Shown here in pieces: positions 12,925 to 37,855 of a DNA stretch of 51,985 nucleotides (its first letter is position 1; the number at the start of each line of letters is the position of its first letter). The notes below the pieces were generated by a model. The model was not told the DNA's origin. It saw only the letters and a list, made by a program, of their open reading frames with translations, and ran no database searches. Source of the DNA: Chloroflexota bacterium (lineage in GTDB: Bacteria; Chloroflexota; Anaerolineae; DUEN01); the NCBI GenBank assembly GCA_013152435.1, contig JAADGJ010000013.1:1-51985 (forward strand), in the 5' to 3' direction. The position numbers were made by a program, and so were the translations under genes.

Positions 12925-12953
12925 TTGACATGCCCGGCGGGATGTGCTAATAT
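12925..12953 (+). promoter_or_regulatory. Strong sigma70-type promoter of the lysine operon
   Basis: A perfect TTGACA at 12925-12930, a 17-bp spacer, and TAATAT at 12948-12953. Transcription should begin near 12960, giving a leader of about 455 nt before hcs at 13417. The leader holds two peptide ORFs and an intrinsic terminator. Confidence 0.85.
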
Positions 12954-12985
12954 CGCCCCTGTGAAGGTGTACTCTCATCTCGGGG

Positions 12986-13057
12986 ATGTGTGACGTGCTT
13001 TCCTGTATCACCCTCCGCAGCAAGAAGCAGAGCAAGGCCAAGAAGCCGGACCATTAG
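12986..13057 (+). CDS. Lysine-rich leader peptide (attenuator peptide 1)
   Basis: A 23-codon ORF reading MCDVLSCITL then RSKKQSKAKKPDH. Five Lys codons, all AAG, fall within eight codons at 13022-13045, just before the TAG at 13055. The ORF begins about 26 nt after the predicted transcription start. Its stop codon touches the 5-prime strand of the antiterminator (13057-13067). This is the classical layout of a leader peptide whose ribosome senses charged tRNA-Lys. The ribosome-binding site is weak (GGGG directly before ATG). The sequence shows codon content and placement; regulation by ribosome stalling is inferred. Confidence 0.75.
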   Translation: MCDVLSCITLRSKKQSKAKKPDH

Positions 13058-13115
13058 GTCTGGTTGACGGCGTTTGCTCCGCACGCGGAGGAGTTGCGAC
13101 CAGCTCAGCCAGACC
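13057..13115 (+). promoter_or_regulatory. Predicted antiterminator of the lysine attenuator
   Basis: GGTCTGGTTGA at 13057-13067 can pair with TCAGCCAGACC at 13105-13115 (11 pairs, one of them G-U). This uses bases of the terminator left arm (13105-13107) and its loop. A small CTCCG/CGGAG hairpin (13077-13090) lies between the strands. A ribosome stalled on the Lys codons leaves the 5-prime strand free; one that reaches the stop codon would cover it. Confidence 0.65.
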
Positions 13116-13137
13116 GGCCATATGAGCTGGTCTTTTT
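13098..13137 (+). terminator. Intrinsic terminator within the lysine leader (attenuator)
   Basis: A perfect 10-bp stem, GACCAGCTCA (13098-13107) with TGAGCTGGTC (13123-13132), has a 15-nt loop and is followed by TTTTTGTT. It lies 280 nt before hcs and inside the operon transcript, so it only makes sense as a conditional terminator. Confidence 0.85.
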
Positions 13138-13173: not shown

Positions 13174-13242
13174 ATGCAGGCTACCCGTGATGCCAACACC
13201 AAGCGCAGCAAGTGCAAGCGGCCAGACCGCGGGTCTGGTTAG
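13174..13242 (+). CDS. Second lysine-containing leader mini-ORF
   Basis: A 22-codon ORF reading MQATRDANTKRSKCKRPDRGSG, preceded by a good Shine-Dalgarno (GAGGA, 7 nt from ATG). It has three AAG Lys codons. Its KRSKCKRPD core resembles RSKKQSKAKKPD of the first leader peptide, and both ORFs run into GGTCTGGTT, so the unit looks like a diverged duplication. No U-tract terminator follows, so if it regulates, it may act on translation of hcs or on a Rho site. Confidence 0.55.
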   Translation: MQATRDANTKRSKCKRPDRGSG

Positions 13243-14612
<1,370 letters not shown>

Positions 14613-14613
<1 letters not shown>

Positions 14614-15905
14614 TGGGCAAGACGTTCGCCGAGAAGGCGCTGGCGCGCGCCGCTGGGGTTTCCGAGGTCACCGCTGGGCAGGTGATCGACGCCCGACCGG
14701 ATGTGATCCTATCCCACGACAACACGGCTGCCATCGCCCGGACGTTTTCCTCCCTGGGCGTCGACCGGGTTCGACACCCGGAGCGGGTGGCCATCGTGCT
14801 GGATCACGCCGTCCCGGCTCCCACCACGCGCCACGCGCAGAACCACGCCGAGATCCGGCGGTTCGTGGCGGAACAGGGGATCACGCATTTCTTCGACGTG
14901 GGACGCGGCATCTGCCATCAGGTGCTGAGCGAGGAGGCCATCGTCCTGCCCGGCCAGCTCATCCTGGGGGCAGACTCCCACACGACCCATTACGGCTGGA
15001 TGGGCGCGTTCGGCGCTGGCGTGGGCCGCAGCGAGGTGGCCGCGCTGTGGGCCACCGGCGAGCTATGGCTGCGGGTGCCCGAGTCCATACGCATCGTGCT
15101 GGAGGGATCACTCCCCCTCGGCGTGACGGCCAAGGATTTCGCGCTGCGCGTCATCGGCGACCTGGGCGCCGACGGCGGGATCTATCTGTCCATCGAGTTC
15201 AGCGGCTCTGGCATCGAGGCCATGTCCGTGGAGTCCCGCATGGTGTTGCCCAACATGATGGCCGAGATGGGGGCCAAAAACGCGTACGTGCCCCCCGATG
15301 CGGTCGTGTTCGACTGGCTGGCACCCCGGCTGGCGCGCCGCACCGGGCGTCCCGTCGAGGAGTGCCGGGCACAGATCGAGGCCGGCGCGCTATATCCGGA
15401 CCCGGATGCCGAATATGTCGCCGAATACCGGTACAACGCCGCGGAACTGGAGCCGTACGTCGCTTGCCCACACACAGTGGATAATGTGGTGCCGCTGTCG
15501 GAGGTGGCGGGCACGCGGGTGCAACAAGCGTTCCTGGGCACCTGCACCAACGGCCGGCTGGAGGACATCGCCCTTGCAGCCGAGGTGATCCGGGGGCGAC
15601 GCGTGGCCCCGGACACCCGCCTTCTGGTGATCCCCGCTTCCAACCAGGTGCTGCAGGAGGCCATGGAGCGCGGCCATATCCAGACGCTGATCGAGGCGGG
15701 TGCGATCATCGGCGTGCCAGGGTGCGGGCCGTGCATGGGCAACCATATGGGCATCCCCGCCCCCGGCGAGGTCACCATCTCCACGGCCAATCGCAATTTC
15801 CGCGGGCGTATGGGCACGCGAGAGGCGGAGATCTATCTGGCAAATCCAGCAGTGGTGGCGGCGTCCGCCATCAAGGGAGTGATTGCCGACCCGAGGGAGT
15901 TGTAG
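14613..15905 (+). CDS. lysT: Homoaconitase large subunit
   Basis: A 430-residue aconitase-family large subunit that isomerises homocitrate to homoisocitrate together with the small subunit. The [4Fe-4S] cluster ligands are visible as Cys311 (FLGTCTNGR), Cys371 and Cys374 ([12 protein letters not shown]). [21 protein letters not shown] is the conserved substrate loop. The length is typical of the LeuC/LysT subfamily. The start codon overlaps the hcs stop. It is separated from lysU by a gap holding a palindromic cassette. Confidence 0.93.
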
Positions 15906-15918
15906 GCGTGGAGCGGGG

Positions 15919-15969
15919 AGCGCAATACGCAACACGCAATACGTATTGCGTATTACGTGTTGCGTAATG
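15919..15969. repeat. Palindromic gap cassette G1 (word ACGCAATACG)
   Basis: The lysT-lysU gap is filled by tandem variants of ACGCAAT/ACGCAAC read into their reverse complements. It includes a perfect 18-bp palindrome at 15934-15951 (ACGCAATACGTATTGCGT). Related cassettes lie at 16487-16553, 17980-18036 and 32561-32612. Confidence 0.8.
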
Positions 15970-15999
15970 AGGTAATGCATAAAGGATATGGGGTCCGCC

Positions 16000-16503
16000 A
16001 TGACGATCCGAGGCCGAGTCTGGAAATACGGCGACAACGTGAACACCGACGTCATCTTCCCCGGCAAGTACACCTACACCATCACCGATCGCCGGGAGAT
16101 GGCCCGGCACGCGCTGGAGGATCTGGACCCGAGCTTCGCGGGGAACGTGCAGCCCGGCGATGTGATCGTGGCCGGGCGCAACTGGGGATGCGGCTCCAGC
16201 CGGGAGCAGGCGACCATCTGCCTGAAAGAGGCGGGGGTGGGCGCCATCGTGGCCGAATCGTTCGCCCGCATCTTTTATCGCAACGCGCTCAACAACGGGC
16301 TCCCGGCCATCATCTGCCCGGAGGCGGCCGCCGCGTTGGAATCCGGCGATGCGGTGGAGATCGATTTAGAGGCTGGAACGATCCGGCGTGGAGACGATAC
16401 ATGGCACTTCCCGCCGCTGCCGGAGACGGCTTTACGTCTGATCCAGGCGGGAGGGTTGATCCCATATCTCAGACGGGAGCTAGGGACAACACGCAATACC
16501 TAA
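16000..16503 (+). CDS. lysU: Homoaconitase small subunit
   Basis: A 167-residue aconitase swivel-domain subunit, partner of LysT. Diagnostic segments are [14 protein letters not shown] near the N-terminus, [11 protein letters not shown] in the middle (substrate-binding Ser-Arg) and [23 protein letters not shown] 16000 is preferred because it gives the family N-terminus; an in-frame ATG at 15988 would leave almost no room after AAAGGA. The last residues (GTTRNT) and the TAA stop are encoded by the palindromic cassette at 16487-16553. Confidence 0.9.
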
Positions 16504-16553
16504 CACGCAACACGTAACACGCAACACGTAATTGCGTACTGCGTATTGCGTGT
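16487..16553. repeat. Palindromic gap cassette G2
   Basis: Five tandem variants of the word AACACGCAATAC/AACACGTAAC are followed by their complement (ATTGCGTACTGCGTATTGCG). It supplies the last codons and stop of lysU and ends just before the ribosome-binding site of the MazG-like gene. Confidence 0.75.
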
Positions 16554-16573
16554 GGGTGCGAGGGAACGAGATC

Positions 16574-16918
16574 GTGGACATACGGGAGCTTACAACGCAG
16601 GTGGAGGCGTTCATCGCCGACATGGGATGGGCGGGGCCGGAATCGCCCTGGCCGCGCACGCCGCGCAACCTGGCCACGTCCGTGATGATCGAGGCGGCCG
16701 AGCTACTTCAGCACTTCCAGTGGGGTGACGAGGTGACCGACCCGGACGCGCTGGGCGCGGAGATGGCCGACGTGCTCATTTACCTGCTGCAGCTGGCTGC
16801 GATCACCGACATCGATCTGGAAGCGGCCACCGTGGCCAAGCTGGCCCGCAACCGCCAGCGATTTTCGCCTTCGAAAATAGGAACCGCGAAGGGCGCAAAG
16901 AGCGCTAAGGATTTTTGA
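16574..16918 (+). CDS. MazG-like nucleotide pyrophosphohydrolase
   Basis: A 114-residue all-alpha NTP pyrophosphohydrolase of the MazG/RS21-C6 (dCTPase) type. The metal-binding signature is EAAELLQHFQW in helix 2 and EMADVLIYLLQLA in helix 3, matching EExxE with ExxD (the first Glu is replaced by Ile-Glu-Ala-Ala-Glu spacing). It would hydrolyse non-canonical or excess nucleoside triphosphates. GTG lies 8 nt after AGGGA. The last 12 residues (GTAKGAKSAKDF) are encoded by the cassette at 16881-16950. It has no known role in lysine synthesis; it is probably a hitchhiker in the operon. Confidence 0.82.
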   Translation: MDIRELTTQVEAFIADMGWAGPESPWPRTPRNLATSVMIEAAELLQHFQWGDEVTDPDALGAEMADVLIYLLQLAAITDIDLEAATVAKLARNRQRFSPSKIGTAKGAKSAKDF

Positions 16919-16950
16919 AAGCCTTTGCGTCCTTCGCGCCCTTTGCGGTT
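16881..16950. repeat. Palindromic gap cassette G3 (word AACCGCGAAGGGCGC)
   Basis: A long imperfect inverted repeat. AACCGCGAAGGGCGCAAAG on the left mirrors CTTTGCGTCCTTCGCGCCC and GCGGTT on the right, made of an 11-nt word repeated with variation. It overlaps the 3-prime end of the MazG-like gene and ends 18 nt before the hicdh start. Confidence 0.8.
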
Positions 16951-16968
16951 AGATTAAAGGGACCAGGC

Positions 16969-17970
16969 ATGAGTCATCGCATCTGCGTCATCGAGGGAGA
17001 CGGCATCGGACGGGAGGTGATCCCGGCGGCCGTGGCCGTGTTGCAAGCCACCGGCGTTGATCTGACGTTCGAGCACGCCGAAGGCGGCTTCGGCTGCTTC
17101 CAACGACGCGGCACGGCGCTGCCGCCGGAGACGCTGGCACTGGCCCGGGAGTGCGACGCCGTCTTCTTCGGCGCCACCCAATCGCCCTCGGGCAAAGTAG
17201 ATGGGTATCGCAGCCCTATCCTGGAGCTACGCCGGGAGCTGGACCTCTACGCCAACCTGCGCCCCGTGCGCTCGCTGCCGATCCCCGACAGCCGCCCGGG
17301 GATCGACCTGCTCATCGTGCGGGAGAACACGGAGGGTCTGTACATGCGCCGTGAGCGCAGCGACGGCGAGACGGCCATCGCCGAGCGCGTCATCACCCGC
17401 CGGGCGTCGGCACGCATCATGCGCGTGGCCTGCGAGCAAGCCCAGGGCCGTCGCGGCCACGTGACGCTGGTGCACAAAGCCAACGTGCTAACCGAGACCG
17501 ATGGCCTGTTCCGCCGGACGGCGCTGGAGGTGGCCGAGGCGTACCCGGGCGTTCGGGTGGATGAGCTGCTGGTGGACACGGCGGCCATGCGCCTGGTGCA
17601 GGCGCCCGAATCGTTCGATGTGCTGGTGACCACGAACCTGTTCGGCGACATCCTGAGCGACGAGGCGGCCGGGCTGGTGGGGGGCCTGGGGCTGGCCGCC
17701 TCGGCCAACATCGGCGATCGACACGGGCTGTTCGAGCCCGTCCACGGATCGGCCCCGGACATCGCCGGGCGAGGCATCGCCAACCCCATCGCCGCCATCC
17801 TGGCCGGCGCGCTGATGCTGGACTTCCTGGGCGAATCGGAGGCAGCCGACCGCGTCCGGTCGGCTGCACTGGACGTCTTGAAACACGGCCCCCGCACGCC
17901 CGACCTGGGTGGGGACGCCCGCACCGCCGACGTGACGCAGGCGGTCGTGAGGAGGATGAGTGATAGGTAG
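16969..17970 (+). CDS. hicdh: Homoisocitrate dehydrogenase
   Basis: A 333-residue beta-decarboxylating dehydrogenase that oxidises homoisocitrate to 2-oxoadipate with NAD. IEGDGIGREVIPAA opens the fold. VRENTEGLYMRRER is the substrate loop resembling Thermus homoisocitrate dehydrogenase rather than the Ser-type loop of isocitrate enzymes. LVHKANVLTETDGLF carries the catalytic Lys, TTNLFGDILSDEAAGLVGGLG the metal Asp residues, and HGSAPDIAGRGIANP the NAD loop. ATG 16969 follows AAAGG; upstream in-frame codons lie inside cassette G3. Broad activity on isocitrate, as reported for some relatives, is possible. Confidence 0.9.
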   Translation: MSHRICVIEGDGIGREVIPAAVAVLQATGVDLTFEHAEGGFGCFQRRGTALPPETLALARECDAVFFGATQSPSGKVDGYRSPILELRRELDLYANLRPVRSLPIPDSRPGIDLLIVRENTEGLYMRRERSDGETAIAERVITRRASARIMRVACEQAQGRRGHVTLVHKANVLTETDGLFRRTALEVAEAYPGVRVDELLVDTAAMRLVQAPESFDVLVTTNLFGDILSDEAAGLVGGLGLAASANIGDRHGLFEPVHGSAPDIAGRGIANPIAAILAGALMLDFLGESEAADRVRSAALDVLKHGPRTPDLGGDARTADVTQAVVRRMSDR

Positions 17971-17979
17971 CTTTCCGTA

Positions 17980-18036
17980 TTACGCAATACGCAATACGTT
18001 TCATGGGTTTCGTATTTCGTATTGCGTATTGCGTAA
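17980..18036. repeat. Palindromic gap cassette G4, perfect 19-bp inverted repeat
   Basis: TTACGCAATACGCAATACG at 17980-17998 is the exact reverse complement of 18018-18036, with a 19-nt loop. It fills the hicdh-lysW gap, ending 12 nt before the lysW Shine-Dalgarno. There is no U-tract, so a terminator is unlikely; an RNA-processing or stability hairpin is possible. Confidence 0.85.
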
Positions 18037-18062
18037 TAACGTAAGGTTAAGGAGGAACTACC

Positions 18063-18239
18063 ATGGCCGAAGTCCGAACCGCCGAATGCCCTGAGTGCGC
18101 TGCCGAGATCGAGCTGAGCGATGTGATCGTCGGCGAGATCATCGAATGTCCCGATTGCGGCGTGGAACTGGAGGTGCGAAACCTGGACCCGTTGGAACTT
18201 GACCTGGCCCCACAGGAAGAGGAGGACTGGGGAGAGTAA
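18063..18239 (+). CDS. lysW: LysW amino-group carrier protein
   Basis: A 58-residue acidic carrier protein. Alpha-aminoadipate is attached through its amino group to the gamma-carboxyl of the C-terminal Glu and stays bound until lysine is made. The zinc ribbon is visible as Cys9-x2-Cys12 and Cys29-x2-Cys32. The chain is rich in Glu and Asp and ends in the signature EDWGE. It starts at ATG with an ideal AAGGAGG 7 nt upstream, fitting the high expression a stoichiometric carrier needs. It is flanked by cassettes G4 and G5 and followed by its ligase LysX. The gene is short enough for automated callers to miss. Confidence 0.96.
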
Positions 18240-18244
18240 AGGGA

Positions 18245-18328
18245 TGAGGCAATGAGGCACAAAGGTATGAGGGAAGACGCGGGGTTCAGGATGTAGGCGC
18301 CCTCGTTACCTCGTCGCCTCGTTGCCTC
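18245..18328. repeat. Palindromic gap cassette G5 (word TGAGGCAA)
   Basis: TGAGGCAATGAGGCAC at the left and CGCCTCGTTGCCTCA at the right form an imperfect inverted repeat made of GAGGCAA-like words. It fills the lysW-lysX gap and uses a different word from G1-G4. Confidence 0.7.
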
Positions 18329-18353
18329 ACCACTCGCATACCGGAGATGAACC

Positions 18354-19247
18354 ATGAAAGTTGGTGTCCTTTGCTCGCGCATTCGCGTCGAGGAGAAGCT
18401 GCTTTTCCAGAAGATGGAAGAGCGCGGGATCCCCTTCGAGCGCATCGACGATCGACAGGTGATCTTCGACTTCCACAGCGACGGTTGGACGCAATACGAC
18501 GTCGTCCTGGAGCGTTGCATCAACCACTCCCGGGCGTTATACTCCCTGCGCATCCTGGACGATCGCGGCATCCCTACCGTCAACACGTTCGAGGTAGCCG
18601 ACACGTGCGGCAATAAGCTGCTGACCACCTCGGCGTTGGTGCGGGCGGGCGTGCCCACGCCCAAGACCTTCATCGCCTACACGCCGGAGTCGGCGCTGGA
18701 GGCCATCGAGCGCATGGGCTATCCCGTGGTGCTCAAGCCGGCCGTGGGCTCGTGGGGTCGCCTGCTCTCCAAGATCAACGATCGCGATGCCGCTGAGGCC
18801 GTGCTGGAACACAAACAGATCCTGGGGACCTATCATCACTCCATCTTCTACATCCAGGAGTATATCCACAAGCCCGAACGGGACATCCGGGCGTTCGTGG
18901 TGGGCGACGAGACCATCTGCGCCATCTATCGCATCTCGCCTCACTGGATCACCAACACGGCGCGTGGTGGCACCGCAACCAACTGCCCGATCACGCCCGA
19001 GCTGAACGATCTCTGCGTCCGGGCTGCCCGGGCCGTCGGCGGGGGCGTCGTCGCCGTCGACGTGCTGGAAGATCCCGAGCGCGGCCTCCTGGTCAACGAG
19101 GTGAACTACACCATGGAGTTCCGGAACTCCATCGAGCCCACCGGCGTGGACATCCCGGGCCGCATCATCGATTTCGTCGTGCGCGTGGCAAAGGAGGGAT
19201 GGGCCGCCGCCAATGGCTGGGAGCAACCCGCGGAGGTGACGGCCTGA
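18354..19247 (+). CDS. lysX: LysX, alpha-aminoadipate-LysW ligase
   Basis: A 297-residue ATP-grasp ligase of the RimK/LysX group that joins the amino group of alpha-aminoadipate to the C-terminal Glu of LysW. Features in order: an N-terminal pre-ATP-grasp domain; [20 protein letters not shown] with the ATP-binding Lys; [20 protein letters not shown]; and [23 protein letters not shown], with metal ligands and the C-terminal signature of LysX proteins. ATG follows CGGAGATG. Its stop overlaps the HAD gene start by one base. An additional ArgX role (glutamate) cannot be excluded from sequence alone. Confidence 0.95.
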
Positions 19248-19975
19248 TGCCTCTGCGTGCGATCACGTTCGACTTTTGGGGAACGCTGTACTGGGTCCCC
19301 ACGGACGGCACCAGCCGAGAGCGACGCACTGAGCTGCTATATCGCTACCTGACCAAACACGGATACGCCATCTCACGAGAACGGCTGCGCGCGGCGTTGG
19401 ACGACAGCTTTCGACGCGCTTACGAGGTGTGGATACGGGAGATGCGCACGGCGAATGCGGCCGAGCGGCTGCGATGGATCCTGAGCGACGTGGGAGCCAC
19501 GCTCCCCTCCCAGGTTCGCGATGCCCTGAGACGAGAGATGGAGGAGACGCTGCTGTCCGAGCCGGTGACGCCAATTCCGGGGGCCATCGAGACGGTGCGC
19601 GCACTGGCCGGGCGCTATCGCCTGGGGCTGATCTCCGACACGGGCATGAGTCCCGGCCGTGTCCTCCGCCACTTCATGGCCCGCGATGGGATCCTCGGGC
19701 TGTTCCAGTACTGCGCGTTCTCCGACGAAACCGGACGGGCCAAGCCCCATGAACGGCAGTTCCTGGATACGCTGAAGCGGCTGGAGGCGCGGCCGGAGGA
19801 GGCCGCTCATATCGGCGACCTGGCAGCCACCGACATCGCGGGCGCCCGCCGTGTGGGCATGAAGGCCGTGCTCTTCACCGGCATCACCGAAGGGCAGGAT
19901 CCCTCGCAGGCCCATGCCATCATCTCCTCCTACGAGGAACTGCTTCCCATCCTGCACGCGTGGAGCGACTCATGA
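19247..19975 (+). CDS. HAD-superfamily hydrolase
   Basis: A 242-residue haloacid dehalogenase-like phosphatase. Motif I is FDFWGTLYW (nucleophile Asp in DFWGT), motif II LISDTGMS, motif III around TGRAKPHERQF (Lys), and motif IV IGDLAATDIAGARRVGM. An alpha-helical cap lies between motifs I and II. ATG overlaps the lysX stop and follows GGAGGTGA; the gene then overlaps lysY by ATGA. The tight coupling on both sides shows it is a true operon member. The substrate is unknown; a role in the pathway or in metabolite repair is possible but not shown. Confidence 0.88.
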   Translation: MPLRAITFDFWGTLYWVPTDGTSRERRTELLYRYLTKHGYAISRERLRAALDDSFRRAYEVWIREMRTANAAERLRWILSDVGATLPSQVRDALRREMEETLLSEPVTPIPGAIETVRALAGRYRLGLISDTGMSPGRVLRHFMARDGILGLFQYCAFSDETGRAKPHERQFLDTLKRLEARPEEAAHIGDLAATDIAGARRVGMKAVLFTGITEGQDPSQAHAIISSYEELLPILHAWSDS

Positions 19976-21033
19976 GCACAGATCGGCTGAGCGTGAGCAT
20001 CGTAGGGGCCTCCGGATACACCGGCGGCGAACTGTTACGCCTGCTGTTAAGCCATCCCGACGTCGAGATCGGACAGGTCACCTCGGAGCGCCACGCGGGA
20101 CGTTATGTCCACTTCGTGCATCCCAATCTCCGCGGCCACACCCGGCTGAAGTTCACCAGCGCCAGCGAGCTCCAGCCATGCGATCTACTCTTCCTTTGCC
20201 TGCCCCATGGCCAGGCGCAAGCACGTATCGATGACTTCGCCGCGCTGGCGCCTCGCATCATCGACCTGAGCGCCGATTTCCGGCTGCGCGACCCGGTGCT
20301 ATACGAACGGTGGTACGGTCAGCCTCATGCCGCGCCCGAATGGCTGGGCCGATTCGTCTACGGGCTGCCGGAGCTCCATCGCGAGGAGATCCGGGGCGCC
20401 TCGTACGTCTCCGGCGTGGGCTGTAACGCTACGGCGACCACGCTGGCGCTGTGGCCGCTCTTCCAGGCCGATCTGGCCGACCGGAGCCGCGACGTCGTCG
20501 TCGAGGTGAAGGTGGGATCATCGGAGGGAGGCAACAGCCCATCGGAGGCCTCGCATCACCCGGAGCGGAGCGGGGTCGTACGATCGTTCGCCCCCACCGG
20601 CCATCGCCATACCGCCGAGGTCGTCCAGGCGCTTTCCTCGACCGGCCAGACGCCGCCCATCCACCTCTCGGCGACGGCCATCGAGCTGGTGCGCGGCGTG
20701 CTGGCCACCGGACACGTGTTCCTGAAGGACCGGAGCCTGACCGAGCGAGACCTGTGGAAGGCTTATCGGGCGGCCTATCGGGATGAGCCGTTCGTCCGCA
20801 TCGTCAAGGAGCGCCAGGGAATCTACCGCTATCCGGAGCCGAAGATCGTGGCCGGGTCGAACCATGCGGATGTGGGCTTCGAGCTGGACCCGGAGACCGG
20901 TCGGGTGGTCGCGCTGTGCGCCATCGACAACCTGATGAAGGGCGCCGCGGGCACAGCCGTGCAGTGTATGAACCTGATGTGCGGCTTCCCGGAGACGAGG
21001 GGGCTGGAGTTTACGGGATTACATCCGGTGTGA
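19972..21033 (+). CDS. lysY: LysY, LysW-aminoadipyl 6-phosphate reductase
   Basis: A 353-residue NADPH-dependent reductase of the ArgC family that reduces the LysW-bound aminoadipyl phosphate to the semialdehyde. The Rossmann start is VSIVGASGYTGGELLRLLLSHP. The catalytic Cys151 lies in SGVGCNATATTLALWPL. Later segments KVGSSEGGNSPSEASHHPERSG and the C-terminal IDNLMKGAAGTAVQCMNLM are typical of ArgC/LysY. ATG 19972 overlaps the HAD stop. Context (LysW, X, Z) identifies LysY rather than ArgC. Confidence 0.95.
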   Translation: MSTDRLSVSIVGASGYTGGELLRLLLSHPDVEIGQVTSERHAGRYVHFVHPNLRGHTRLKFTSASELQPCDLLFLCLPHGQAQARIDDFAALAPRIIDLSADFRLRDPVLYERWYGQPHAAPEWLGRFVYGLPELHREEIRGASYVSGVGCNATATTLALWPLFQADLADRSRDVVVEVKVGSSEGGNSPSEASHHPERSGVVRSFAPTGHRHTAEVVQALSSTGQTPPIHLSATAIELVRGVLATGHVFLKDRSLTERDLWKAYRAAYRDEPFVRIVKERQGIYRYPEPKIVAGSNHADVGFELDPETGRVVALCAIDNLMKGAAGTAVQCMNLMCGFPETRGLEFTGLHPV

Positions 21034-21039
21034 GCACCG

Positions 21040-21170
21040 GATACGGATACAGGATTCATGATGCACGATGCGGGGTTCGGGACATAGGATGCAGAGCACC
21101 CTATCCGGATCCCGGGCCCTGCCTCCCTGCATCCTGCATCTTGCACCCTGTATCCTGCACCTTGCATCCT
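21040..21170. repeat. Palindromic gap cassette G6 (word GGATGCA)
   Basis: The lysY-lysZ gap carries tandem GGATACAGGAT/GATGCACGATGC words on the left and their complements (CTGCATCCTGCATCTTGCACC) on the right, forming a long imperfect inverted repeat. The architecture is the same as G1-G5 but the word is different. Confidence 0.75.
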
Positions 21171-21186
21171 GACCGAAGAGGTGACC

Positions 21187-21990
21187 ATGATCGTCGTCAA
21201 AATCGGTGGCAGTGAGGGGATCAACCTGGACCTGATCGCGGATGATATCGCCGCGTTGGTGAAAGAGGGCCAACGGATGATCGTCGTCCACGGCGGCTCG
21301 GCGGAAACCAACCGGGTGGCCGAGGCGCTGGGGCACCCTCCCCGTTTCGTCACGTCCGTGTCGGGCTACACCAGCCGCTACACCGACCGCAAGACGCTGG
21401 AGATCTTCGAGATGGTGTACTGCGGCAAGGTCAACAAGGGGCTGGTGGAACGGCTCCAGCGGCGCGGCGTGAACGCGGTGGGGCTCTCCGGGCTGGACGG
21501 CCGCATCTTTGAGGGGCCGCGCAAGGCGGTCATCAAGGTGATCCAAAACGGGCGGCGCATGGTGCTGCGGGATGACTACACGGGCAAAGTGGAGCGGGTA
21601 AACGCGGATCTGCTGCGCCTGCTGCTGGACAACGGCTATCTGCCGGTGCTCACCCCGCCGGCCGCCTCCTACGATGGCGAGGCCATCAACGTGGACGGGG
21701 ATCGGGCGGCCGCGGCGGTGGCCAAGGCGATGGGGGCCGAGCAGCTCATCATCCTGTCCAACGTGCCGGGCCTGCTACGCAACTACCCGGACGAATCCAG
21801 CCTGATCCCGCATATCCCGCGCGGCCGGGTAGAATCGGCCATGGACTTCGCCCAGGACCGGATGAAGAAGAAGGTGCTGGGGGCCACCGAAGCGCTGGAA
21901 TCGGGCGTGCGCCGGGTGGTCTTCGCCGACGGCCGGATGGAACAGCCGATCCGCCGGGCGTTGGCCGGCCAGGGAACCGTCATCGAGTGA
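21187..21990 (+). CDS. lysZ: LysZ, LysW-aminoadipate kinase
   Basis: A 267-residue amino-acid-kinase-fold enzyme (ArgB family) that phosphorylates the side-chain carboxyl of LysW-bound aminoadipate. VVKIGGSEG is the phosphate-binding Lys loop, VVHGGSAETN the substrate-binding loop and AINVDGDRAAAAVAKAM the nucleotide segment. LSNVPGLLRNYPDESSLI and RMKKKVLGATEALESGVRRVVFADGR complete the family pattern. ATG 21187 is chosen over GTG 21181 for its spacing to AGAGG. Confidence 0.95.
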   Translation: MIVVKIGGSEGINLDLIADDIAALVKEGQRMIVVHGGSAETNRVAEALGHPPRFVTSVSGYTSRYTDRKTLEIFEMVYCGKVNKGLVERLQRRGVNAVGLSGLDGRIFEGPRKAVIKVIQNGRRMVLRDDYTGKVERVNADLLRLLLDNGYLPVLTPPAASYDGEAINVDGDRAAAAVAKAMGAEQLIILSNVPGLLRNYPDESSLIPHIPRGRVESAMDFAQDRMKKKVLGATEALESGVRRVVFADGRMEQPIRRALAGQGTVIE

Positions 21991-22020
21991 ACAGGATGCC
22001 CCACACGGACGAGGTGCATT

Positions 22021-22920
22021 GTGAATGAGACGAAGGCCACCATTGACATCTCTCCGGAGATCAAGGAGAAGCTCCTGTCCTTCCAGCGAAACGAGATCAC
22101 CGAGCATCTGATCTATCAGCGGCTGGCTCAGAGTGTGAAAGAGCCGGAGAATCGGAAGATCCTGGAGCAGATCGCAGCCGATGAGTTGAGGCATTACAAC
22201 ACCTGGCGCGGCTACAGTCAAGAGGATGTGCCACCGGACAGGCGTCAGGTATGGTTCTACACCACGCTGAGCCGGATATTCGGGCTGACCTTTGGGCTGA
22301 AGCTGATGGAAAGCGGCGAAGAGGCGGCTCACGAGGACTACGCATCGCTGATCGGCGTGCTGCCAGATGCAGAACAGCTGGCAGAGGAGGAGAAGGTCCA
22401 CGAATCCCGGCTCATCGACCTCCTCGACGAAGATCTACTGCGGTATGTGGGGTCCATCGTCTTGGGATTGAACGACGCGCTGGTCGAGTTGACCGGCGCA
22501 CTGGCGGGCCTGACCCTTGCGCTGCAAAATACACAGCTCATCGCCATGACGGGCGCCATTACGGGCATCGCGGCGGCGCTGTCCATGGCCACGTCCGAGT
22601 ACCTGTCCGTGCGGGAGGAGCAGGACATCACCGATCGAACGCCCGGCAAGGCCGCGGTGTACACCGGCCTGGCGTACATCGCGACCGTGCTCGTCCTGAT
22701 CGCGCCCTATCTCTGGTTCGAAAACTACTTCGTGTGCCTGATCGCCACGCTGATCATCGCCGTGGCGATCATCGCCCTGTTCAACTATTACGTGGCCGTC
22801 GCCAGAGAGCTCTCCTTCCGCAAACGTTTCCTGGAGATGGCCGCGCTGAGCTTAGGCGTCGCTGCCTTCAGCTTTTTGGTGGGCTACGCGCTCCGCACCC
22901 TCTTCGGGGTCGAGGTCTAG
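22021..22920 (+). CDS. Ferritin-like/CCC1 (VIT1) fusion, probable iron or manganese transporter
   Basis: A 299-residue protein with an N-terminal rubrerythrin/ferritin-like four-helix domain (about residues 8-135) fused to a VIT1/CCC1-type membrane domain (about 140-299). Likely di-metal ligands are in LSFQRNEITEHLIYQRL (Glu), IAADELRHYNTW (ExxRH), the SGEEAAHEDY helix and AEEEKVHESRL (ExxxH). The membrane part has the CCC1 pattern LGLNDALVELTGALAGL and SMATSEYLSVREEQD. Such fusions resemble MbfA-type iron exporters. GTG start follows GAGG. Its place between lysZ and lysJ is unexplained; a membrane iron carrier in a lysine operon may be chance co-transcription. Confidence 0.88.
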   Translation: MNETKATIDISPEIKEKLLSFQRNEITEHLIYQRLAQSVKEPENRKILEQIAADELRHYNTWRGYSQEDVPPDRRQVWFYTTLSRIFGLTFGLKLMESGEEAAHEDYASLIGVLPDAEQLAEEEKVHESRLIDLLDEDLLRYVGSIVLGLNDALVELTGALAGLTLALQNTQLIAMTGAITGIAAALSMATSEYLSVREEQDITDRTPGKAAVYTGLAYIATVLVLIAPYLWFENYFVCLIATLIIAVAIIALFNYYVAVARELSFRKRFLEMAALSLGVAAFSFLVGYALRTLFGVEV

Positions 22921-22980
22921 CCTCCGCGCCACGGCCGCCCGGCCTGAGACGAGGGTCCCCTTCTTCCGGGAGGAAGCACT

Positions 22981-24288
22981 ATGTCGTCCAACATGTCCAT
23001 CATCGAGCTTGAATCTCGCTACACCTCCGGCGCGTACCCCAAGCGGGAGGTCGCCATCGTGCGCGGCCGGGGAGCCCGGCTATGGGACGCCGACGGTCGC
23101 GAGTACATCGATTGCGCCTCCGGCCATGGCGTGGCGCTCATCGGCCACGGCCGCCCCGAGGTGGCCGACGCCATCGCCGAGCAGGCCCAGCGACTCATCA
23201 CCTGTCCGGAGGTCTTCTACAACGACCAGCGCGCCCGCCTGCTGGAGCGGCTGATCGGCCTGGCACCCGAGGGGCTGACCCGGGCCTTCCTCTGCAACTC
23301 CGGCGCAGAGGCCATCGAGGGCGCCATCAAGTTCGCCCGTCTGGCCACCGGCCGCCCCGGCATCGTGGCGACCATGCGCGGCTTCCACGGCCGCACCCTG
23401 GGCGCGCTCTCCGCCACCTGGGAGAAGAAGTACCGACGGCCGTTCGAGCCGCTGGTCCCCGGGTTCACCCATGTGCCCTACAATAACCTGGACCGGCTGG
23501 CCCAGGCCGTCACCGAGGACACCGCGGCCGTCCTCCTGGAGGTCGTCCAGGGCGAGGGGGGCGTCCGGCCCGGCTCCCGGGAGTTCTTGCAGGGCGCCCG
23601 GGAGGTCTGCGACAAGGCTGGGGCCCTGTTGATCGTGGACGAGGTGCAGACGGGATTTGGCCGCACAGGGCGATGGTTCGCGGTAGAGCACCATGACCTC
23701 CGGCCTGACCTGATGGCGCTGGCTAAGGGGATGGCAGGCGGCGTCCCCATGGGCGCCGTCCTCATGACCGACGCCGTAGCCAGCCAGATCAAGCCGGGCG
23801 CACATGGCTCCACCTTCGGCGGCAATCCGCTGGCCTGCGCGGCCGCCCTGGCGACCATCGATGTGCTGGAGCGGGAGGATCTGCCCCGCCAGGCGGCGGA
23901 GAAGGGGAGCTATCTCATCGAGCGCCTGCGCCGCATCGAGTCGCCGAAGATACGTGAGGTCCGAGGGGTGGGGCTGATGGTGGGCGTGGAGCTGAGGGAG
24001 CGCAGCACGCCATATCTGCGCAGGCTGATGGACCGGGGCGTGTTGGCTCTGCCGGCAGGGCCTACGGTCGTCCGCTTCCTGCCACCGCTGGTCATCAGCC
24101 GGGAGGAACTGGATCGAGTCGTGGACGAGCTCGCCATCGTGCTGGCTAAACACGTTAACGGTAGGGGCAGGGCTGAGACCTGCCCCATGCGCATCAACTT
24201 AACGACGCAGGCAAGGACCTTCGATTGCTGCTCTGCACTATCTGGACAATGTCACATTCGAGGCGACAGGGAAATCAGCCGCCTGTGA
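22981..24288 (+). CDS. lysJ: LysJ, LysW-aminoadipate semialdehyde transaminase
   Basis: A class-III PLP aminotransferase (435 residues) that converts LysW-bound aminoadipate semialdehyde to LysW-lysine using glutamate. CNSGAEAIEGAIKFAR is the phosphate-binding region. LIVDEVQTGFGRTGRWF has the PLP-ring Asp, and LAKGMAGGVPMGAVLM holds the Schiff-base Lys. HGSTFGGNPLACAAALAT follows. The natural domain ends near IVLAKHV (about residue 397). The remaining 38 residues start inside a GGGGCAGG palindrome at 24164-24186 and look repeat-derived. ATG follows GGAGGAAG; ATG 22993 is an alternative. Confidence 0.93.
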   Translation: MSSNMSIIELESRYTSGAYPKREVAIVRGRGARLWDADGREYIDCASGHGVALIGHGRPEVADAIAEQAQRLITCPEVFYNDQRARLLERLIGLAPEGLTRAFLCNSGAEAIEGAIKFARLATGRPGIVATMRGFHGRTLGALSATWEKKYRRPFEPLVPGFTHVPYNNLDRLAQAVTEDTAAVLLEVVQGEGGVRPGSREFLQGAREVCDKAGALLIVDEVQTGFGRTGRWFAVEHHDLRPDLMALAKGMAGGVPMGAVLMTDAVASQIKPGAHGSTFGGNPLACAAALATIDVLEREDLPRQAAEKGSYLIERLRRIESPKIREVRGVGLMVGVELRERSTPYLRRLMDRGVLALPAGPTVVRFLPPLVISREELDRVVDELAIVLAKHVNGRGRAETCPMRINLTTQARTFDCCSALSGQCHIRGDREISRL

Positions 24289-36503: not shown

Positions 36504-36770
36504 GGTCGTGCACCCCCTGTCGAGCCGCGCACACCGGCTTGCAGGACTAGCCAGCTCTGGCCAGGCGCCCCCGCGGCACCCAGGGGTGACCGCTTACCGT
36601 TGCTTCCTTCCGGACCTGGCGGGGTTCGCGGGCCCCTGCTGCGCAGGACCCAGCCTTCAACACCGCTTGGCCCTGCAGTCCCGGCGCACGCTAGCCCTCG
36701 AGGGGGAATTCGACCCCGCTATAGCGGATTGCGGGTACAGGGCACCGCTAGCTCCCCGTCTAGCACGACC
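36504..36770 (-). ncRNA. ffs: Signal recognition particle RNA, large bacterial type
   Basis: A 267-nt SRP RNA with Alu and S domains. The invariant apical loop CAGGTCCGGAAGGAAGCA lies near 36604-36621. The 5-prime domain has GTGCTAGACGGGG, GGTGCCCTGTACC and CGCAATCCGCTATAGCGGGG, closely matching Bacillus scRNA. The termini are set by a perfect 8-bp helix, GGTCGTGC (from 36770) with GCACGACC (to 36504). It has its own promoter and terminator. Confidence 0.95.
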
Positions 36771-37521: not shown

Positions 37522-37608
37522 CGGAGAGGGCGGGATTTGAACCCGCGAGGGCTTTCGCCCTACGCGCTCTCCAGGCGCGCGCACTAGGCCAGACTATGCG
37601 ACCTCTCC
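37522..37608 (-). tRNA. tRNA-Ser (anticodon GGA)
   Basis: An 87-nt class II tRNA. The acceptor GGAGAGG pairs with CCTCTCC, followed by discriminator G. The anticodon loop CTGGAGA gives GGA, reading UCC/UCU. A long variable arm (GGGCGAAAGCCC) and GGTTCAAATCC T-loop confirm Ser. CCA is not encoded. Its promoter TTGGTC, 17 bp, TATAAT lies at 37646-37618 on the minus strand. Confidence 0.95.
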
Positions 37609-37726
37609 ACGGGCTCCATTATATCATCGAGCGAGGAATTGACCAAATCATACGCCCACGATGGGCCGGCTTCACGATTCCTCGCGACGATATTCCCTCC
37701 GCCCCGTCTATACACTTTGAACAAAC

Positions 37727-37750
37727 AAAAAAAGACCCCAATCGGGGTCC
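37727..37750 (-). terminator. Intrinsic terminator of tRNA-Ser(CGA)
   Basis: Minus-strand stem GACCCCGATTGGGGTC followed by seven T residues, between the two tRNA genes. Confidence 0.9.
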
Positions 37751-37765
37751 CAGCTCAAACACAGG

Positions 37766-37855
<90 letters not shown>

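Follow-up and report, generated by a model that had tools for sequence, protein, structure and literature searches.

How is transcription of the lysine biosynthetic operon of this Chloroflexota bacterium controlled? In the window analysed here (the whole stretch of 51,985 nucleotides), hcs, the first gene of the operon, is preceded by a region at 12925-13137 that a preliminary description, made from sequence alone, had read as an amino-acid attenuator of the trp/his type in front of a LysW-type lysine operon. Our analysis supports this reading. We consider it very likely (probability about 0.92) that the region is a transcription attenuator in which a translating ribosome senses charged tRNA-Lys and, as part of the same reading, that it belongs to a Chloroflexota-wide family built on one recurring chassis, which bears Lys codons in some members, Arg codons in others and apparently Pro codons in yet others, each before the matching genes. 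The anatomy, conservation, codon specificity, covariation and folding on which this view rests are shown; ribosome stalling, termination, read-through and regulation in vivo are inferred, there being no expression data.

The downstream operon is composed as follows:

13417-14613, + strand: hcs, homocitrate synthase, first gene of the operon (TIGR02146, 509 bits, above cut-off)
14613-24288, + strand: the rest of the lysine operon, namely hacA, hacB, a pyrophosphohydrolase-like gene, homoisocitrate dehydrogenase, lysW, lysX, a HAD-like gene, lysY/argC-like, lysZ, a ferritin-like gene and lysJ (NCBIfam; by eye)

The lysX and [LysW]-aminoadipate kinase genes score above their NCBIfam cut-offs, argC/lysY was also identified, and the expected NCBIfam families were hit by lysJ, hacA, hacB and homoisocitrate dehydrogenase. 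The lysW gene (18063-18239) encodes a protein with the C-terminal end EEEDWGE. This is an operon of the LysW-type alpha-aminoadipate lysine pathway. Three genes with labels assigned by eye are interleaved in it: a MazG-type pyrophosphohydrolase-like gene (16532-16918), a HAD hydrolase-like gene (19199-19975) and a gene for a ferritin-like membrane protein (22021-22920). Elsewhere in the window, a large bacterial SRP RNA and two tRNA genes were seen at 36506-36768 and 37522-37852 (- strand).

The first leader and its predicted RNA switch

An attenuator of the trp/his type is expected to have a translatable leader ORF with clustered codons for the end product, mutually exclusive 1:2, 2:3 and 3:4 hairpins giving opposite outcomes upon stalling and completion, and an intrinsic terminator ahead of a biosynthetic operon, here that for lysine. 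The following elements meet each of these criteria, the second on the strength of folding and of covariation that is strong for 1:2 and 3:4 and weak for 2:3:

12925-12953, + strand: sigma-70-type promoter, TTGACA-17-TAATAT, with an extended -10 TGC (sequence)
12995-13057, + strand: first Lys leader peptide ORF, encoding MLSCITLRSKKQSKAKKPDH and a stop codon (GTG start preferred, alternative ATG at 12986; Lys codons kept in relatives)
13022-13045, + strand: Lys codon cluster, the putative sensor, AAG AAG CAG AGC AAG GCC AAG AAG (sequence)
13030-13079, + strand: 1:2 anti-antiterminator hairpin (13046-13052 with 13057-13063) and outer helix (13030-13039 with 13069-13079) (folding; covariation)
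13057-13115, + strand: 2:3 antiterminator (13057-13067 with 13105-13115) (MFE with segment 1 masked; weak covariation)
13098-13137, + strand: 3:4 intrinsic terminator (13098-13107 with 13123-13132) and U-tract (folding; covariation)

The promoter hexamers (12925-12930 and 12948-12953, with a 17 nt spacer) are common to all four genomes of the GTDB family. The preliminary description had proposed a 23-codon ORF, with five AAG codons in eight just before its stop. Both the frame (ATG 12986 to TAG 13057) and the AAG count held, but the peptide is more likely the 20-residue MLSCITLRSKKQSKAKKPDH, beginning at GTG 12995, because the alignment of the four family genomes places the start there (GTG, or ATG in one genome), preceded by a purine-rich ribosome site (GGGGA/AGGA/GGGAG). 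Nor does the Lys run directly abut the stop codon (TAG, 13055-13057): it ends three codons earlier, followed by CCG GAC CAT TAG. Given a Lys frequency of 2.3% in the operon, the probability of finding at least five Lys in eight codons is about 3.5e-7. A search for the exact DNA pattern of the cluster gave no matches.

The promoter, the antiterminator, the terminator and the bases shared between the last two had all been described correctly. The antiterminator consists of 11 pairs, including one G-U, and begins at the last base of the stop codon; the 10 pairs of the terminator stem are all perfect, with TTTTT (13133-13137) after them, and bases 13105-13107 are common to both. What the preliminary description had missed is the 1:2 hairpin with its outer helix, along with the second leader and the phylum-wide, codon-swapped family presented below. 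Segment 1, CCGGACC (13046-13052), which spans the Pro-Asp codons, is complementary to segment 2, GGTCTGG (13057-13063), while in the outer helix the Lys-codon stretch GAGCAAGGCC (13030-13039) pairs with GGCGTTTGCTC (13069-13079).

The region folds with a z-score of -5.8, and 0/200 shuffles folded as well. We folded growing transcripts with different 5′ parts masked to mimic the ribosome, as the preliminary description had suggested, and the predicted switch was reproduced. Without a ribosome, the RNA formed the 1:2 hairpin and the terminator. With the RNA free from 13055, mimicking a stall at the last Lys codons, the 2:3 antiterminator was the MFE structure (-38.2 kcal/mol) through to 13140, and with a ribosome at the stop codon the terminator formed. 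When the unmasked part began at 13048, the antiterminator dominated until the terminator arm was complete; the full-length MFE in this case is still the terminator, and the switch may therefore rely on co-transcriptional kinetics.

We propose the following mechanism. When lysine is plentiful, the ribosome would reach the stop codon and cover segment 2, allowing 3:4 to form and transcription to end near 13137. In the absence of translation, the 1:2 hairpin would sequester segment 2 and transcription would end again. When charged tRNA-Lys is scarce, the ribosome would stall on the AAG cluster and break 1:2, so that 2:3 would form in place of the terminator and hcs would be transcribed. Lysine production would very probably be switched on only when lysine is short, by way of two Lys-rich frames in switchable RNAs.

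Conservation and codon exchange across the phylum

The absence of conserved Lys codons or stems in relatives would, according to the preliminary description, have refuted its reading. Comparison of the leaders of orthologous hcs genes, which it had also suggested, gave the opposite result. Requiring three or more Lys among the final 12 codons of an ORF, and a terminator 35-120 nt beyond its stop, we found a Lys-rich tail and terminator in 37/129 hcs-upstream regions. Neither the reverse strand nor any of 8 dinucleotide shuffles gave a single case, and the next amino acids by the same criteria were Arg (12) and Ser (11). The relatives' leaders contain, for example, KKQSKAKKPDR, KKSKKQKPD, KRSKSKKEPDHWSG or KKPDR, and are typically followed by a terminator whose loop bears CCAGAC or a variant of it.

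In an alignment of 34 attenuators, both partners vary in 13 of the 20 pairs that make up 1:2, the outer helix and 3:4. Covarying cells in these helices numbered 41, compared to 15.2 in shuffled alignments, with 0/500 shuffles scoring as high, although these counts are somewhat inflated by related sequences. Helix 2:3 is 81% paired and covaries only weakly (2 pairs with changes on both sides, a score reached by 9/500 shuffles), in part because segment 2 has to remain complementary to segment 1 as well. Many members of the organism's GTDB class have no attenuator upstream of hcs; in those inspected by eye, hcs lies inside the operon. At two other loci (L007, L031), the first of two terminators upstream of hcs directly follows the promoter and no Lys leader was seen.

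We used a covariance model of the attenuator, R1, for genome searches. It matches 167/396 genomes of the class and 30/301 genomes of a phylum sample, some of the latter from families that do not belong to the class. Three elements were found in the genome from which the window comes: the attenuator described above (E = 1.8e-22), the second leader (1.2e-9) and an element on contig C99 (1.1e-9). The last is an Arg-codon attenuator (G000:C99:26337-26456, - strand; locus L143) encoding MSPLPIHARLPRSPRRLQPDHWSG and a stop codon; the gene immediately after it is argC-like and part of an argC-argB-like operon, and close relatives L176 and L178 carry argC. Weak matches on two further contigs of this genome (C54 and C35, E about 0.06) were rejected as ordinary terminators with no leader seen.

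Away from hcs, Arg-rich leaders precede argC and argG, and Lys-rich leaders precede lysX operons. The ratio of Lys-type to Arg-type leaders was 0:21 at argC, 0:7 at argG, 16:3 at lysX and 43:0 at hcs (Fisher P about 3e-20); in other words, 28/28 leaders at argC/argG are Arg-type and 59/62 leaders at hcs/lysX are Lys-type, the three lysX exceptions being mixed K/R leaders. The P value is only indicative, as the genomes are related and, where more than one leader frame was open, the choice was made by eye.

The same chassis also carries Pro-rich leaders (e.g. RLPSPPEPEKPD) before a prolyl-tRNA synthetase or a metallophosphoesterase-like gene, an apparent proline branch of the family. The loci concerned, most of them with Pro-rich leaders, are L195, L198, L203, L207, L211, L217, L220 and L250, with proS at L203 and L211; no leader ORF was picked at L211 or L250, both before proS-like genes. 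We had considered the L195 match, before a metallophosphoesterase gene, to be a false positive, an idea dropped once Pro-rich peptides were found at proS (L203) and ahead of other members of the metallophosphoesterase gene family (L198, L217).

Two kinds of leader were seen in other contexts. Gln-rich leaders (QQRGQQQPDRRSG, NNSQRQQPASRSG) occur on the chassis before a LysE-like transporter at L248 and L251, in genomes outside the class, and Lys-rich leaders occur before a NUDIX-like gene at L200 and L221, away from the lysine operons seen.

A second leader between the attenuator and hcs

A second Lys-rich leader, preceded by GAGGA, lies between the attenuator and hcs:

13174-13242, + strand: second Lys leader peptide ORF, encoding MQATRDANTKRSKCKRPDRGSG and a stop codon (R1 match at 13200-13307)
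13220-13240, + strand: 1:2 hairpin of the second element (13220-13228 with 13232-13240) (folding)
13242-13282, + strand: 2:3 of the second element, the segment from 13242 with 13265-13282 (folding)
13266-13307, + strand: 3:4 stem of the second element, terminator-like (U-tract absent in 3/3 genomes)
13282-13359, + strand: alternative ON helices, X (13282-13292 with 13349-13359) and 4:5 (13296-13302 with 13337-13343)
13335-13413, + strand: anti-Shine-Dalgarno CGGCTCCCC (13335-13343) and hcs ribosome site GGGAGGAGCCG (13403-13413)

The CGGCTCCCC sequence has two alternative partners, the hcs ribosome site and segment 4, GGGGAGC (13296-13302), and helix X goes with the second of these pairings. 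One possibility, which extends the main reading and does not compete with it, is that this second element is a translational attenuator acting in series with the first. A ribosome stalled at the Lys codons of the second leader would free segment 2 to pair with segment 3, and segment 4 would then take up the anti-Shine-Dalgarno and open the hcs ribosome site. In favour of this idea, the leader, hairpin, stem, anti-Shine-Dalgarno and Shine-Dalgarno (SD) form high-identity blocks in three genomes, and identity drops to near zero in the stretches that separate the blocks. In relatives L003 and L004, release of segment 2 shifts the MFE from anti-SD:SD to 4:5, and the anti-SD:SD probability falls from 0.99 to 0.08 and from 0.61 to 0.05, respectively. 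All pairs of helix X are kept in 3/3 genomes despite one-sided changes, the two complements occur together in only 14/200000 shuffles, and the fourth family member (L005), which has no second leader, lacks both the anti-SD and the complementary SD flank. Against it, the comparison rests on only three genomes, closely related; the OFF fold in the window remains more stable by about 8 kcal/mol (-97.6 vs. -89.5); SD accessibility in L003 and L004 rises from 0.17-0.20 to only about 0.30; and the second attenuators of relatives in other families do have a U-tract. With three genomes and folding alone to go on, we rate this reading at slightly below even odds.

It is also possible, though somewhat less likely, that the second leader descends from a transcription attenuator, has decayed with the loss of its U-tract and is now without function. 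Second attenuators with a U-tract do exist in other families (L015, L097, L104, L106, L107), but the Lys codons, hairpins and downstream anti-SD have been kept here while the flanks have not, and the strong stem persists in 3/3 genomes. Tandem leaders or terminators, there with U-tracts, were found at L015, L050, L083, L097, L104, L106, L107 and L120.

Taken together with the transcription attenuator, the translational version of the second leader leads to a bolder reading, in which two Lys leaders gate one operon at two levels, first transcription and then the hcs ribosome site, on a phylum-wide chassis with swapped Lys, Arg and Pro codons. We put this forward tentatively, the balance of evidence leaning slightly against it. 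If true, the tandem would be a case of one signal read twice in series.

Other explanations and known systems

Could the first element be a riboswitch-like leader binding a protein or metabolite, its Lys codons being incidental? The strongly conserved RNA structure would fit such a leader. We nonetheless think this very unlikely, since codon identity follows the downstream pathway on an otherwise common chassis. Rfam covariance models gave only chance matches to the attenuator, far below their gathering scores, and the lysine riboswitch (RF00168) was found in 0/60 relatives and not in the window's genome, while the search was positive in four control genomes. A chance pairing of an upstream gene's constitutive terminator with a random Lys-rich ORF, for which one might cite that promoters and terminators are no commoner than chance in a window-wide scan, is all but excluded by an arrangement kept in many genomes, placed between promoter and hcs, and found 0 times in shuffles or on the reverse strand.

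The ribosome-mediated attenuator remains our preferred reading. Leader-peptide attenuation is itself already known, and the Chloroflexota chassis is a new form of that mechanism; our literature search found no report of such attenuation for Chloroflexota, which is not proof of its absence. The phylum gains a widespread amino-acid control system that is absent from Rfam. The occurrence of Lys, Arg and Pro codons on one RNA switch before matching genes amounts to a natural codon-swap experiment, and directly tests the origin and re-tuning of leader-peptide attenuators.

Like the lysine riboswitch (L-box), the element would provide lysine-responsive leader control of lysine genes, but with the ribosome as the inferred sensor. 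The second element resembles translational attenuation of the ermC/cat type, in that a leader stall is predicted to remodel a hairpin masking a downstream ribosome site; it differs in its predicted signal, an amino acid in place of an antibiotic, and in its predicted place behind a transcription attenuator.

The lysine gene cluster of Thermus thermophilus is reported to be under leader-peptide attenuation. It has in common with the present system the pathway and hcs as first gene, which is likewise preceded by a terminator and by a short leader containing neighbouring Lys codons. The Thermus/Deinococcus-group hcs loci that we searched have short Lys leaders (e.g. those ending in AREKKLRRGGAG, and MKYREAKKLYAGGAG) and terminators. 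These leaders differ in sequence and architecture, being single elements without the PDxxSG/CCAGAC chassis. A common origin is not shown, because R1 has no significant match there (best E 0.011 at these loci; none at E <=0.01 in five Deinococcota genomes). Loci L052, L258 and L264-L275 are of this different design, the terminator arm at L052 overlapping the leader ORF.

The closest parallel in design is with trp/his-type attenuation in enteric bacteria, which has the same cognate-codon leader ORF, 1:2, 2:3 and 3:4 hairpins, intrinsic terminator and biosynthetic operon. The amino acid, phylum and sequence differ. In the Chloroflexota element, moreover, the protecting 1:2 hairpin takes in the Lys codons themselves, translation stops at a codon within the 1:2 loop or just past segment 2, and the element is often duplicated in series.
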